From contig CAKZMG010000029.1 of assembly GCA_937128235.1 (NCBI GenBank), positions 1 through 38,804 on the forward strand: a stretch of 38,804 nucleotides of DNA, given 5' to 3'. The stretch comes from an uncultured Verrucomicrobiales bacterium. GTDB taxonomy: Bacteria; Verrucomicrobiota; Verrucomicrobiia; Verrucomicrobiales; Akkermansiaceae. The notes below the pieces were generated by a model. The model did no database searches. It had not been told where the DNA came from and saw nothing but the letters and a program-made list of their open reading frames with translations. Each line of letters begins with the position of its first letter. Positions within the stretch are counted from its first letter, which is position 1. Positions 22,408 through 38,804 of the stretch are shown here, piece after piece. The position numbers and the translations under genes were made by a program.

Positions 22408-23130
22408 TTATGCTCTTCTTCGGCGAGCGATGAATCCAAGACCAGCAAGCCCTAGAAGCATTGTTGATGATGGTTCTGGGACAACACAGCCAGTGACGTG
22501 AAGTCCGTCTATGATAAGCTGGTTATTTCCACTAGGAGTATTTGTAGTCATGATGTCAATTCTTACTGTGTCTCCTGCATTTACAGCGATAGTGCCGTTG
22601 GATGCGGTGTGTGTAGAATTAGTAGCGAACTCCCAGTAGTCGTTACTATTGAGACCAGTAGTCGTATTGCCCTTCCAGCCTCTGAATGAGGTGGTGTTGG
22701 ATGTGCCAGTTGCGGCAACTTGTACTCCATTCACGAACAGCTTAGCTTGGTTTCTGTCCCAGCTCGCTGATGGAGTTGGCTCAGTTGACCAGTAGTTAGT
22801 AAGCTGTAGTCCTTCAAGATCGATAGCTTGAGTAGCTGAGAAGGACATAGACAGTGTATTCATTGTGCCTGAAGACTGCCATACACCATTTGCTGTAGAG
22901 CTGTTCCAAGGGTTAGTTACATTGCCAGTAGTGGCACCAGGAGTGATGCTTGTGCCTGTTATAGCAGCGGCACTAGAGCTAGGACTATTACTTGTGAAGT
23001 CATATGCCAAGATAGTAGGGCAATCACTATTCATGTTGTAATTCACGTTCCCATTGGGGGCGCAAGCCATAGCTGCTGGTGCGCCAATGAGGGCTACGCA
23101 TATTGCAGTTATTGTTTGTTTTCTTTTCAT
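22408..23130 (-). CDS. PEP-CTERM sorting-domain protein
   Basis: The 240-residue protein has a signal peptide (MKRKQTITAICVALIGAPAA) and the C-terminal sorting signal VPEPSSTMLLGLAGLGFIA followed by RRRRA. That is the PEP motif, a hydrophobic helix and a basic tail, as recognised by exosortases. The body is Ser/Thr/Asn-rich and beta-like. It contains LEGLQLTNYWSTEPTPSASW and GYWEFA-like elements also found in the protein at 36436-37182, so the two are paralogues. Cysteines lie right after the signal peptide (ACAPNG), at DCPTIL and before the PEP motif (GCVVPEP). It has its own terminator. No exosortase gene is in the window. Confidence 0.88.
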   Translation of the reverse strand: MKRKQTITAICVALIGAPAAMACAPNGNVNYNMNSDCPTILAYDFTSNSPSSSAAAITGTSITPGATTGNVTNPWNSSTANGVWQSSGTMNTLSMSFSATQAIDLEGLQLTNYWSTEPTPSASWDRNQAKLFVNGVQVAATGTSNTTSFRGWKGNTTTGLNSNDYWEFATNSTHTASNGTIAVNAGDTVRIDIMTTNTPSGNNQLIIDGLHVTGCVVPEPSSTMLLGLAGLGFIARRRRA

Positions 23131-35511: not shown

Positions 35512-35973
35512 TTAACTCTCTAACAGATTATCTAGTTCCTTAGGTATGAGACTCGCATCAGTTGCTTCTTGGGCGGCTATGCGCATTTGGAATTTTAGAG
35601 TGTCCATAGGCACGGGTGGGCGGTAGTCACTGAGGCATGCCTTGAGTGATTGAAGTGCATCCATATCCGTCGTTTTATGAACACGGAAGGTCTGGACAGA
35701 GATCGCCTCAGCTGCTCCTGGTGTGAGTAAAACGGGAATGAGATTTTCTAGTTCCTTGAACGCATCTTTTGGAATCACAAGCTTTCTGCGCTTGCACAGC
35801 GCACGGATAAGGCTGAAGCCTTCTTTAGGATTGAGTGATGGGAATAGGGGAATTTTAACATCTACACGGGCAGAGGCACAAGTGAGTATCATCGGAAGGC
35901 TATTCGTAGGGAATCCTATTAGAAGCAAAGGATTCCAAAATAGCAGTCTATCATTTAGCTGGTCACTCCTGGC
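35512..35973 (-). pseudogene. C-terminal remnant of an AAA-like ATPase
   Basis: The minus-strand frame is open from just after a TGA (35974-35976) to the TAA at 35512-35514. Reading NDRLLFWNPLLLIGFPTN, ASARVDVKIPLFP and KEGFSLIRALCKRRKL, it resembles the end of an AAA+ module (the sensor-1 strand with Asn, the arginine-finger region and the lid). The helical lid-like remainder runs to DNLLES. There is no Walker A or B upstream, the only start codons are a TTG (35928) or a later ATG, and upstream DNA is non-coding. It therefore looks like a 5'-truncated gene. The family assignment is by pattern only. Confidence 0.45.
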
Positions 35974-36231: not shown

Positions 36232-36360
36232 AGCAAGCTAAGAATAGCTCCACGATAGAAAGGATATCTCGGTAGTAAACTGACGAACTACTACGTAAAG
36301 CCGCATGCGGGAGATACTTACGTTCGGTTTGAAGTGGGTGCTAGAAATACCTTCTACTCC
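36232..36360 (+). mobile_element. Decayed 3' end of a group II intron (domains V and VI)
   Basis: The segment at 36298-36330 has the layout of group II intron domain V: an AAGCCG arm carrying the AGC triad (36299-36301), a short helix closed by an AGAT loop, and a returning CGGTTT arm with the ACG bulge region. Both helices contain mismatches compared with the near-invariant consensus. A domain VI-like hairpin follows (36331-36358). The stretch before it (CTCGGTAGTAAACTGACGAA) resembles the sequence that precedes domain V in bacterial introns. There is no reverse transcriptase ORF. Between 35974 and 36231 I see no gene, only AT-rich DNA with a 12-base palindrome AGCTTATAAGCT (36164-36175). 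Confidence 0.5.
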
Positions 36361-36435: not shown

Positions 36436-37182
36436 TTACCTCTTTCGCTTAAGAATAAAAACTGTTAAACTGGATATAAGAAGTAAGGATGATGAAGGTT
36501 CTGGAACCACGCATCCATGGATAACCATTCCGCCAATTGCTAGTTTATTGGTTGCTCTTGGGCCTGAAACTGTTCCTCCAGCAGTTATAAGACTAATAGA
36601 AACTAAATCCCCATCATTAGCAGTCAATGTATAGCTACTGGGTGTATTTTTTGAACTCTCTGCAAATTCCCAGTATTCATCACTTGCAGATAAGCCATCT
36701 GTAGTCCCCCTCCAGCCTGTAAGTGGTAACATAACGGCATTACCATTTAAATCAGTTGGAGCGATCGCTAAGTTATTGATAGCTAGAGAGACTATAACAT
36801 CATCCCAAGCACTATCTGGAGTTGGCTCTGTCGACCAATAATCTAATAACTGTATACCTTCTAATTCGATAGTTTTGCCGGATGCGACGGTAAACGTAAC
36901 TTCAATTTTATTGGAGCCGTTATTGTTCACATAAACGTTATTTGCTGTGTATCCAAAATCGTTAGTAGAGCTAGCTGACGCTGTTCCTCCTGAGATATTT
37001 TGATTTATTACTGAGCTAGTAATTACATCTGTGATATCGCCTGGCTCGAAGTCGTAGGATAATATGACAGGGCAGTCATTCACTATATGGTTATCAACGC
37101 TACCAGTAGGGGCGCAAGCTAGTAATGTGGTAGAGTAGGCAAAGCTAGAATAGGTTAAGGCGGTTATTATTTTTTTGTTCAT
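36436..37182 (-). CDS. PEP-CTERM sorting-domain protein, paralogue of the one at 22408
   Basis: The 248-residue protein has a signal peptide (NKKIITALTYSSFAYSTTLL) and ends with VPEPSSSLLLISSLTVFIL plus KRKR, a PEP-CTERM exosortase signal. Its body follows the protein at 22408-23130 closely: ACAPTGSVDN with DCPVILSYDF, LEGIQLLDYWSTEPTPDSAW, LTGWRGTT and DEYWEFAESSKNT. Three cysteines are kept in the same places, after the signal, in DCP and before the PEP motif. The signal ends in LLAC, which also looks like a lipobox, so lipid attachment is a possibility. A near-palindromic site lies about 60 bases upstream of the start. Confidence 0.88.
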   Translation of the reverse strand: MNKKIITALTYSSFAYSTTLLACAPTGSVDNHIVNDCPVILSYDFEPGDITDVITSSVINQNISGGTASASSTNDFGYTANNVYVNNNGSNKIEVTFTVASGKTIELEGIQLLDYWSTEPTPDSAWDDVIVSLAINNLAIAPTDLNGNAVMLPLTGWRGTTDGLSASDEYWEFAESSKNTPSSYTLTANDGDLVSISLITAGGTVSGPRATNKLAIGGMVIHGCVVPEPSSSLLLISSLTVFILKRKR

Positions 37183-37542
37183 AATTTATATATCCCTTAT
37201 TTAGGGGGTGCATTTTGTAGTAAACTAAAGGTAAATTAGATATACGTATATGTGCGTATTCGTGATTTTCAGACTCCTGTTAATCATGTTAAGTGTTGAT
37301 TATCAATAGTGTAACAGATTTAACGGGAAGTCGGTTAAGCTAAAATAGCGAAACTCGTTAAACAAAAAATCCAGATGAATTGTAGTTCTGTGTTTTGGTC
37401 AGATTTTTTCCATGATAGCATATTACTAAACTGCTATGAATATTTGCGATAAAAATATGAAATTTCACGAAAATGGTTAGGAATTATATTATCTTTGATA
37501 AACTTAACTTAAGTGCGTTATTAGGGTAGATTTTAGAGTTTT
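37183..37542. other. 360-base AT-rich intergenic region between two PEP-CTERM genes
   Basis: Apart from the regulatory elements at 37221-37261 I see no gene here. A small inverted repeat TAATCA/TGATTA lies at 37281-37302 and no clear terminator for the upstream gene (37543-38172) is visible. Confidence 0.5.
37221..37261 (-). promoter_or_regulatory. Near-palindromic operator and TAAACTAAA element upstream of a PEP-CTERM gene
   Basis: TATACGTATATGTGCGTATT plus C (37241-37261) is an imperfect palindrome. TAAACTAAA (37221-37229) lies 11 bases closer to the gene at 36436-37182. The same pair of elements occurs at 38227-38265 with 9 bases between, so the arrangement is shared by the two PEP-CTERM genes. 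Confidence 0.5.
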
Positions 37543-38172
37543 CTATCTGTTTCGGCGAATTAATAGGCCTAGAGAACCGAGACCAAGTAATGCTGCGCTT
37601 GATGGCTCAGGAACGCCTTTCGTGGTTATTGTAACATTGTCCAGCCCCAGATATGAAGCAAAGCCACTTGATGCTTTTTTTGGACTAAATCGAAGGGTTT
37701 GAATTTCAGTAGTGGCTATGAATATTAATGATTCTTGATTCCAAGCTATTTCTGCGACTCCTGAAGAGAGTGTTTGACTACCAAACGTAATATCAAATGC
37801 ACCAGGGGTATTAAGAGTATTAGCGTTCGAACGTGCGAAATCATAATGAATTTCATACTGTTGCCCATCAGTTAAACCTGAAATACTTTGTTGTATATAT
37901 TCGGTGCCTGAATTGGTAGTAGTCGCAATCATAGCAACAAATGATCCGTCTGGAGGGGTAGAGAATCCTCCACTTGTTGCTGTTGAGGGTGTGTATATAT
38001 CAGGAGTGGTTGCACCCGAAGACCAGTCTGTAGGTGTGTTTCCATTACCTGCTGTGCCTGTCATGCCACTGTTAGTAGCAGTCTGGGCATTCACGTAAGC
38101 TGTTAGAGTTAACATGGTGCTAGTGAATACTGTTATTATTTTGTTACTATTTTTAATATTTTGTGTTTTCAT
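37543..38172 (-). CDS. PEP-CTERM sorting-domain protein with a jelly-roll-like body
   Basis: The 209-residue protein has a signal peptide (about 1-29, ending in AYVNA) and the C-terminal sorting signal VPEPSSAALLGLGSLGLLI then RRNR. The body reads like a beta-sandwich domain of the DUF642/choice-of-anchor type: DGSFVAMIATTTNSGTEYIQ, then QQYEIHYDFARSNANT, and ASYLGLDNVTI near the end. It is not closely similar to the two other PEP-CTERM proteins. It should be exported and handled by an exosortase encoded elsewhere. It is divergent from a LuxR-like regulator gene, with a palindromic site in between. Confidence 0.85.
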   Translation of the reverse strand: MKTQNIKNSNKIITVFTSTMLTLTAYVNAQTATNSGMTGTAGNGNTPTDWSSGATTPDIYTPSTATSGGFSTPPDGSFVAMIATTTNSGTEYIQQSISGLTDGQQYEIHYDFARSNANTLNTPGAFDITFGSQTLSSGVAEIAWNQESLIFIATTEIQTLRFSPKKASSGFASYLGLDNVTITTKGVPEPSSAALLGLGSLGLLIRRNR

Positions 38173-38226
38173 AACTTAAAATCCTAACTTAATAGTTGTT
38201 TTATTAGGGATGAACTTATAATTAGA

Positions 38227-38265
38227 TAAACTAAACATTAACACAATACGCATACATGCGTATTC
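38227..38265. promoter_or_regulatory. Palindromic operator and TAAACTAAA element in the PEP-CTERM/regulator divergent region
   Basis: AATACGCATACATGCGTATT (38245-38264) is a perfect 8-base inverted repeat with a 4-base centre. TAAACTAAA (38227-38235) lies 9 bases away on the PEP-CTERM side. The palindrome is 73 bases from the PEP-CTERM start and 64 bases from the regulator start. It matches the site at 37241-37261 at most positions. Confidence 0.6.
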
Positions 38266-38328
38266 ATCCATAGGTGTATTTTTGCCTAATGTCCTGGCCA
38301 CCCTCCATAATCTATATATAAACTTTAA

Positions 38329-38804
38329 ATGAAATCCGAAATGACACCGCTTGAATGGACTAGTATTCAAGAGACAATTAGTAAAATCCACCAAACTAAG
38401 AATATTGACGAGCTAAAGTACTTTGTTTTAGAAGAGCTTCCCCCAATAATAAATTGTCATTCAGCTACATGGAATGTCCATGATGGTAAGCTGAATTTTA
38501 CAGAAATGGCGGGGACTCATTTTCTCGACAAAACTTACCCGCATTTGAAGTCTGAGGTATTTAAGCATATCAATACGCATCCTTTATTTCACCATATTTT
38601 TATAGATGACAGAGTGATAAATTGGGGTTATCCGAAGAGTATATTGGGCATTACTGATCAATCAACTTATCGAGAATCCTTGTTATATACGGAAGCTTAC
38701 AAAGAAATGGAAATTGAAGATCAAATATGCTCTCAGGTGCACTTCGGTGAGAATGGCGGCTTACTGCTTACTTTTAATAGTAATAGTGAGATTAGCGGAC
38801 AAAT
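38329..38804 (+). CDS. N-terminal part of a LuxR-family-like transcriptional regulator (partial)
   Basis: The frame is open from ATG 38329 through the window end, giving 158 residues (an ATG at 38341 is an alternative start). The sequence runs SEMTPLEWTSIQETISKIHQ, then HINTHPLFHHIFIDD, ITDQSTYRESLLYTEAYKEM and ENGGLLLTFN. This pattern (HPxFxHxxxxD, TDxxxYRExxLYxExYxxM, GGLxLxF) resembles the GAF-like sensor region that precedes a LuxR-type helix-turn-helix in many Verrucomicrobia proteins. The DNA-binding domain would lie beyond the window, so this is family inference. It is divergent from a PEP-CTERM gene, with a palindrome between them. Confidence 0.6.
   Translation, partial: MKSEMTPLEWTSIQETISKIHQTKNIDELKYFVLEELPPIINCHSATWNVHDGKLNFTEMAGTHFLDKTYPHLKSEVFKHINTHPLFHHIFIDDRVINWGYPKSILGITDQSTYRESLLYTEAYKEMEIEDQICSQVHFGENGGLLLTFNSNSEISGQ

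Follow-up and report, generated by a model that had tools for sequence, protein, structure and literature searches.

The stretch of DNA analyzed here (the window) is the whole of contig C29, 38,804 bases long, from a draft genome of 3.86 Mb in 347 contigs that is 94.6% complete. Close to its end lie two PEP-CTERM genes on one strand and, divergent from the first of them, the beginning of a third gene that starts 64 bp beyond a perfect palindrome (Table 1). Gene 1 also has a DUF642 match, below cut-off. Gene 2 is 37% identical to a PEP-CTERM paralogue at 22408-23130, upstream of which the palindrome was not found. The two genes had been described as dissimilar from the sequence alone, and BLASTP indeed found no significant match between their proteins, the best being the PEP-CTERM tail at E 0.16. 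With these tails on both proteins and two exosortase pieces over cut-off elsewhere in the genome (on contigs C52 and C55), a PEP-CTERM sorting system is present. Two further stretches of the window caught our attention: positions 36290-36345 recall the 3' part of a group II intron, of which an Rfam search found none there, and positions 35599-35764 give a sub-threshold match to the Clostridiales-1 RNA (27.9 bits; gathering threshold, 48) that overlaps an open reading frame (ORF).

Table 1. Features of the two promoters and the genes around them, in window positions
Feature	Position	Strand	Description
PEP-CTERM gene 2	36436..37182	-	248 aa; TIGR02595 over cut-off
Possible -10 hexamer, gene 2	37214..37219	-	TACAAA; 4/6; weak; offset 21 nt, gene 2 side of site 2
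Box, promoter 2	37221..37229	-	TTTAGTTTA; in the spacer of promoter 2
Site 2	37241..37260		TATACGTATATGTGCGTATT; 6/8 arm pairs, 2 arm mismatches relative to site 1; upstream of gene 2; proposed operator of gene 2
PEP-CTERM gene 1	37543..38172	-	209 aa; TIGR02595 over cut-off
Possible -10 hexamer, gene 1	38218..38223	-	AATTAT; 4/6; weak; offset 21 nt, gene 1 side of site 1
Box, promoter 1	38227..38235	-	TTTAGTTTA (+ strand, TAAACTAAA); promoter 1 spacer
Site 1	38245..38264		20 bp, AATACGCATACATGCGTATT; perfect 8-4-8, 8/8 arm pairs; arms and loop AATACGCA-TACA-TGCGTATT; flanked by gene 1 and the divergent regulator gene, for both of which it is the proposed operator
Possible -10 hexamer, regulator gene	38287..38292	+	TAATGT; 3/6; weak; offset 22 nt, regulator side of site 1
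Probable LuxR-type regulator gene	38329..38804	+	first 158 residues; cut by the contig end

The sequence-only reading had drawn attention to a palindrome and a 9-base box in front of both PEP-CTERM genes, and both elements bear scrutiny. Site 1 is a perfect 8-4-8 palindrome, of 20 rather than 21 bp, and site 2 agrees with it at 17 of 21 bases; the exact TAAACTAAA box follows on the gene side after 9 bases at promoter 1 and 11 at promoter 2, just as described. At up to three mismatches, the pattern AATACGCANNNNTGCGTATT has two matches in the window against 0.15 expected, a number reached in 1 of 100 shuffles. Aligned without gaps, the most similar 20-mers of the two upstream regions share 17 bases, and among shuffled pairs 17 was found in 1 of 60 and 16 in 1 of 60. 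A shared 9-mer arose in 0.67% of 20,000 shuffled pairs at a similar offset (differing by up to 3) and in 7.5% at any offset. By these chance figures, the palindrome is stronger evidence than the box. The box fills the spacer between palindrome and hexamer at two different offsets, was not seen in the flanks printed for relatives, and is probably incidental.

We next considered how far the palindrome extends through the host genome, which has 88 matches to TIGR02595, 87 of them over cut-off. Upstream regions could be read for 84 PEP-CTERM genes (75 of them over the full 500 nt), and only two contained the palindrome at up to four mismatches, both in the window. A genome-wide PEP-CTERM regulon is thereby rejected, and the dedicated regulon that had been proposed from the two promoters is not supported. 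A motif scan of the whole genome, suggested together with that proposal, points the same way: at up to three mismatches it found nine places, against six for a reversed-pattern control, and of the seven outside the window, six were called inside ORFs and one was intergenic, with no PEP-CTERM gene listed at any of them. Loosening the pattern to five mismatches added ten other PEP-CTERM genes, in a near chance-like scatter, and the looser core TACGYA-N4-TRCGTA had a two-mismatch match at three PEP-CTERM genes other than genes 1 and 2. The box was present upstream of 5 of the 84 genes, a small excess over the 0.7 averaged by 40 shuffles (maximum, 2); the three copies outside the window, at -30, -104 and -447, have no adjoining palindrome. 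No short word was common to most PEP-CTERM genes in the last 200 nt of 78 upstream regions, where the over-represented words included CCCCTAA (6 of 78; 0.47 in shuffles) and TATTGA (20 of 78; 8.7 in shuffles). Judged from sequence matches, then, the regulated set found here would be a local one, comprising gene 1, gene 2 and the regulator gene. Elsewhere in the genome, at C130:39500-43900, a phosphoglycerate kinase-like gene has a divergent cluster of four PEP-CTERM genes beside it; the palindrome is absent there, and one of the four resembles gene 2 by eye.

The gene starting at 38329 had gone unmentioned in the sequence-only reading. Neither Pfam nor NCBIfam gives a name to its 158 visible residues or finds a receiver domain in them. 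Among 195 genomes of the family, the fragment has matches in seven, its own genome included. Seven non-self matches, at E 5e-16 to 1e-7 and 21-31% identity, are open frames of 263-319 aa that all carry a C-terminal LuxR-type helix-turn-helix (HTH), identified as Pfam GerE in L091, L092, L094 and L097 and from our own HMM or the sequence in the others; two more matches are weaker. The visible part is thus homologous to GerE proteins, and it is probably the N-terminal part of a LuxR-type (GerE) regulator whose HTH would lie beyond the contig end. None of the host genome's five GerE matches, four of which are over cut-off, continues the gene. As the DNA-binding domain is not in the assembly, we infer the binding of this regulator to the palindromes. 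The palindrome was absent upstream of all eight relatives examined of the nine (L094 has only 25 bp of upstream sequence), and hence not every member of the family has the operator. Similarity of the fragment to the palindrome-linked regulators described below is weak (best BLASTP E 0.008, to L230), and the L189 regulator has no BLASTP match to the fragment in the same region. Of 52 pattern matches to the fragment in the genome_contigs collection, none was confirmed as a relative, and none was found among solved structures at E 10.

To see in what company the palindrome occurs elsewhere, we turned to the family and the order. At up to one mismatch it was found in 11 of 260 family genomes, against one for a control pattern. 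Two copies, separated by 4.1 kb, are found in G048, which belongs to another genus of the family. The first is 52 bp upstream of a LuxR-type gene (L111 13208-14233; GerE, 7e-14) and faces a divergent exported-looking gene; the second stands before a tandem paralogue of that gene, which is followed by a PEP-CTERM-like gene. This is the layout of the window, with an N-terminal part of the regulator that differs: neither search connected the G048 regulator to the 38329 gene. (Here and below, genes were judged exported-looking and, outside the host genome, PEP-CTERM-like by eye from their sequences.) In the order, the core pattern ATACGC-N6-GCGTAT was present in 29 of 386 genomes, against 13 for the control. 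Much of what these scans returned looks accidental, because 23 of the 28 loci were called inside ORFs, as were both extra ones (L169 and L170), and six of the ORF-internal loci (L141, L143-L146 and L148) are apparently the same gene of one genus; in G388, one of four places was examined. The ORF call does over-extend starts: the sites of L157 and L158 were called inside ORFs and were later placed between genes by an HMM. At these two loci, which come from two genomes of a single genus in a different family of the order (G359 and G327), a LuxR-type gene and an exported-looking gene diverge from ATACGCC-N4-GGCGTAT, so that three genomes of the order show this arrangement. A further candidate, in G107, was dropped, its site being inside an ORF with PAS-like sequence.

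We then scanned the contigs of 3 kb or more of 84,980 species in genome_contigs for the exact palindrome, which returned 115 sites in 109 stretches. Thirty sites were called inside ORFs of 100 aa or more, a count inflated by over-long ORFs (L189 and L239, for instance, were called inside). With an HMM of our own, built from nine LuxR HTHs, a LuxR-type gene was detected in 29 of the 109 loci and not found in the other 80 (stretches of 8 kb or less). An end of such a gene lay within 400 bp of the site in 25 of 109 loci, compared with 98 of 2,180 random positions in the same loci. In 8 of these 25 the nearest end was the 5' end and in 17 the 3' end; 11 of the 17 represent one Flavobacteriaceae locus, and two (L203 and L250) involve possibly spurious ORFs, of 80 and 75 aa.

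Ten of the stretches are from Verrucomicrobia, two of which we assign to the phylum presumptively from their names. Homologous regulators of about 350 aa are encoded in four of them (L189, L224, L230 and L239) and in Nitrospira moscoviensis (L174), and immediately 5' of each of their genes stands the site, which faces an exported-looking gene. The four verrucomicrobial regulators are 45-73% identical among themselves, and Pfam GerE was found in all three proteins scanned (L189, L230 and L174). In Bacteroidota, L183 and L198 have the site in the gap between a NarL-type gene and an exported-looking gene that diverges from it; at L205 and L222 it precedes an exported-looking gene that adjoins a NarL-type regulator. 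Querying 387 genomes of the phylum with the L189 regulator gave four matches in three genomes. Two of the four (L284 and L285) have TACG-N8-CGTA, in the form TACGCC-N4-GGCGTA or TACGTA-N4-TGCGTA, in the interval that separates the regulator from a long, divergent exported-looking gene, and the other two (L286 and L287) have no core site beside the regulator at up to three mismatches. The metagenome-assembled genome (MAG) that contains L189 has one such regulator and three exact sites (L189, L252 and L259), each preceding a similar exported-looking gene and one of them beside the regulator, as well as a fourth site with two mismatches inside an ORF. The three exported-looking proteins have WTN...NW repeats. 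In the Limisphaerales MAG of L230, a one-mismatch site stands before a similar gene and another was called inside a short ORF. The picture in both MAGs is of one regulator with few exported-looking targets, and the window has two.

The flanks of the exact sites revealed a preferred promoter spacing. Of 230 flanks, 50 had a TAnnnT beginning 21 nt beyond the palindrome and 13 had one at 20 nt; over offsets of 5-44 nt, none but 21 exceeded a count of 18. Leaving aside the Flavobacteriaceae cluster, 37 of 204 flanks had it at 21 nt and 12 or fewer at any other offset. This peak puts the palindrome centre near -42 to -43. In class II activation by LuxR-type proteins the site is centered near -42.5, as for LuxR at the lux box. 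At individual loci, TAnnnT stands at exactly 20 nt in L189, L224, L230, L239 and L259 and at 21 nt in L208 and L252; toward the exported-looking gene, it is absent at 20-21 nt from G048, L174, L206, L262, L284 and L285. The class II geometry is clear in the set of 109 stretches, whereas the window's hexamers at that offset match at just 4 of 6 positions. For gene 1, better hexamers (5/6 each) are TCTAAT at 18 nt and TATAAG at 24 nt, and for gene 2, CAAAAT at 23 nt scores the same as TACAAA.

We also looked at the fold of the N-terminal domain in the L189 regulator, using a model built from a seven-sequence alignment that included the window fragment (mean pLDDT 82; pTM 0.52). The full model matches full-length quorum-sensing LuxR proteins with a large rmsd. 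Its N-domain resembles LuxR ligand-binding domains, namely those of VqsR (5xhx; TM 0.73 by target, rmsd 3.9) and CepR2 (5l10; TM 0.69). Phytochrome chains, which hold domains related to LuxR ligand-binding domains, were also among the structure matches. At 20% identity between the fragment and L189, the window's regulator may have a sensor of this fold, which implies no ligand. The Pfam autoinducer-binding model had no match in the fragment or in the palindrome-linked regulators scanned.

Taken together, these data lead us to favor, as the probable explanation, a model in which the palindromes are lux-box-like operators through which the autoregulated LuxR-type regulator encoded at 38329 activates the adjacent PEP-CTERM genes. 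A dimer of this one-component, GerE-HTH regulator would bind the 20-bp palindrome, which would lie near -42.5 of each PEP-CTERM promoter, and would activate there in class II fashion; from site 1 it could also influence its own gene. What we observed are the sites and the confinement of their similarity, the divergent gene with its relatives, a layout that recurs, and the -10 peak of the collection; we infer from this that both sites are bound by the 38329 protein, that its effect is activation and not repression, and that a ligand is sensed by its N-terminal domain. The model resembles LuxR and the lux box in its 20-bp palindrome, its divergent layout, the GerE HTH of the relatives, the -10 spacing that centers the site near -42.5 across the collection, and the LuxR ligand-binding fold of the L189 N-domain model. 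It differs in its recognition sequence, its PEP-CTERM targets and the missing Pfam autoinducer-binding match.

The palindromes could instead be operators of the same LuxR/NarL type that serve repression, or that are bound by another of the host's GerE regulators. The regulator on C219 is a case in point: this LuxR-type gene adjoins a PEP-CTERM gene on the same strand (C219:2232-5213), and its product has the stretch SKRTVDKHLE in common with the G048 regulator. However, the palindrome TAC-N10-GTA is absent from the ranges checked beside the regulators on C219, C194 and C24, site 1 sits directly between gene 1 and the 38329 gene, and a -10 peak at 21 nt downstream is more easily reconciled with activation from -42.5 than with occlusion. 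We therefore regard this alternative as unlikely, if the most serious of those we considered.

We regard as less likely still an origin of the two promoters by local duplication, of about 45 bp or of a longer, since decayed repeat, with no dedicated regulator. Upstream of the palindrome, the two regions are no more similar than shuffles (619 of 1,000 reached the observed local score and 200 of 1,000 the global one), and the same is true of local alignment downstream of the box (691 of 1,000). Global alignment there is marginal, with 11 of 1,000 shuffles reaching it, and this slight surplus and the shared 9-mer are what a duplication would account for. The similarity of the two promoters is confined to about 45 bp, and with so little beyond this block, they are not copies of one longer repeat. 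The proteins also lack a significant match, and a duplication would leave unexplained the symmetry of the palindrome and its recurrence with LuxR-type genes. Thus, the part of the sequence-only reading that preferred a shared regulator to duplication has gained from the confinement and from the recurrence beside LuxR-type genes, while the dedicated regulon that it attached to this regulator has not.

An 8-bp stem with a 4-nt loop could also form an RNA hairpin or an intrinsic terminator, and 11 Flavobacteriaceae palindromes do follow the stop codon of a NarL-type gene, with T-rich flanks in those that were printed. Both window sites, however, are upstream of genes, a terminator scan of the region returned four other sites and neither palindrome, and a -10-like hexamer recurs at a fixed distance across the collection, all of which leaves this reading slightly less credit still than duplication. 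Control by PrsK/PrsR with sigma-54, a described cis-regulatory system for PEP-CTERM genes whose motif, in the parts of the source available to us, was found only in Proteobacteria (PMC1569441), is scarcely credible here, as both upstream regions lack GG-N10-GC and TTTACA and none of the genome's seven matches to TIGR02915 (PrsR) is over cut-off (best, 410.7 of 502.6 bits, in the 94.6%-complete assembly).

Several known regulators linked to PEP-CTERM genes, or found in genomes that have them, differ from the proposed one. The PrsR/sigma-54 box has GG at -24 and GC at -12, and a motif 1 that ends in TTTACA (PMC1569441, as far as seen); the window has another sequence, no sigma-54 promoter and no PrsR over cut-off, and involves two genes where that system, in the same portion of the source, involves most PEP-CTERM genes. 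EpsA (TIGR03020), an XrtB/PEP-CTERM-associated regulator, is the best NCBIfam match of the L189 and L174 HTHs, which score 70.5 and 58.5 bits against a cut-off of 170 and match over the HTH only; the window fragment has no match to this model. The PEP-CTERM gene zepA, including in Nitrospirota and the PVC superphylum, has a palindromic motif upstream and a Zur/FUR-type regulator nearby (PMC10957091, in the sections seen). The window shares with it a palindrome upstream of a PEP-CTERM gene and a neighboring regulator gene; compared by description rather than by motif letters, the zepA regulator is of the FUR family and involves zinc, unlike the LuxR-type gene here. In Rubrivivax gelatinosus, whose genome has PEP-CTERM genes, the LuxR-family regulators EmbRS and BmfRS influence the formation of biofilm or matrix (PMC3684757, from the portion seen, which gives no binding site), and these differ in being two-component response regulators with receiver domains.

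Our literature search found, among the matches listed, no description of this palindrome or of a LuxR operator for PEP-CTERM genes. A 2006 paper anticipated, in the part seen, that further regulators and DNA motifs for PEP-CTERM genes await discovery inside and outside Proteobacteria (PMC1569441). The broader proposal that AATACGCA-N4-TGCGTATT and its close variants form an undescribed and widespread operator of LuxR-type solo regulators with an N-domain of the LuxR ligand-binding fold, switching on neighboring genes for long exported proteins or PEP-CTERM surface proteins in Verrucomicrobiota and Nitrospirota, has in our view an even chance of being right. If it is, matrix-protein expression would be tied to a sensed small molecule, and PEP-CTERM genes outside Proteobacteria would have a second class of regulator beside Zur/FUR. 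What is gained is an operator together with a family of candidate regulators and a set of listed target genes from several phyla, with which the signal behind exported-protein production becomes a testable question.

Site 1 also reads TACGCAT-N2-ATGCGTA, and this 7-2-7 arrangement is the geometry of NarL-family sites. Like those of NarL/NarP, its inverted heptamers begin with TAC; unlike the consensus TACYYMT (PMC4886647, in the part seen), they have G rather than C or T at position 4, and the window fragment has no receiver-domain match. The Flavobacteriaceae palindromes just 3' of a NarL-type gene (L178, L181, L182, L186, L187, L197, L211, L231, L237, L244 and L260) are followed, in the loci printed, by a conserved element near CTTTACagtGCTATTAATTAg at a fixed distance, which is possibly the promoter of a small RNA under the NarL-type regulator. 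NarP sites have been predicted upstream of torYZ in a Pasteurellaceae context (PMC1805755, as far as seen). In three Pasteurellaceae loci (L188, L201 and L257), genes for TorY-like cytochrome c are preceded by the palindrome of site 1, which TAnnnT follows at 21 nt.
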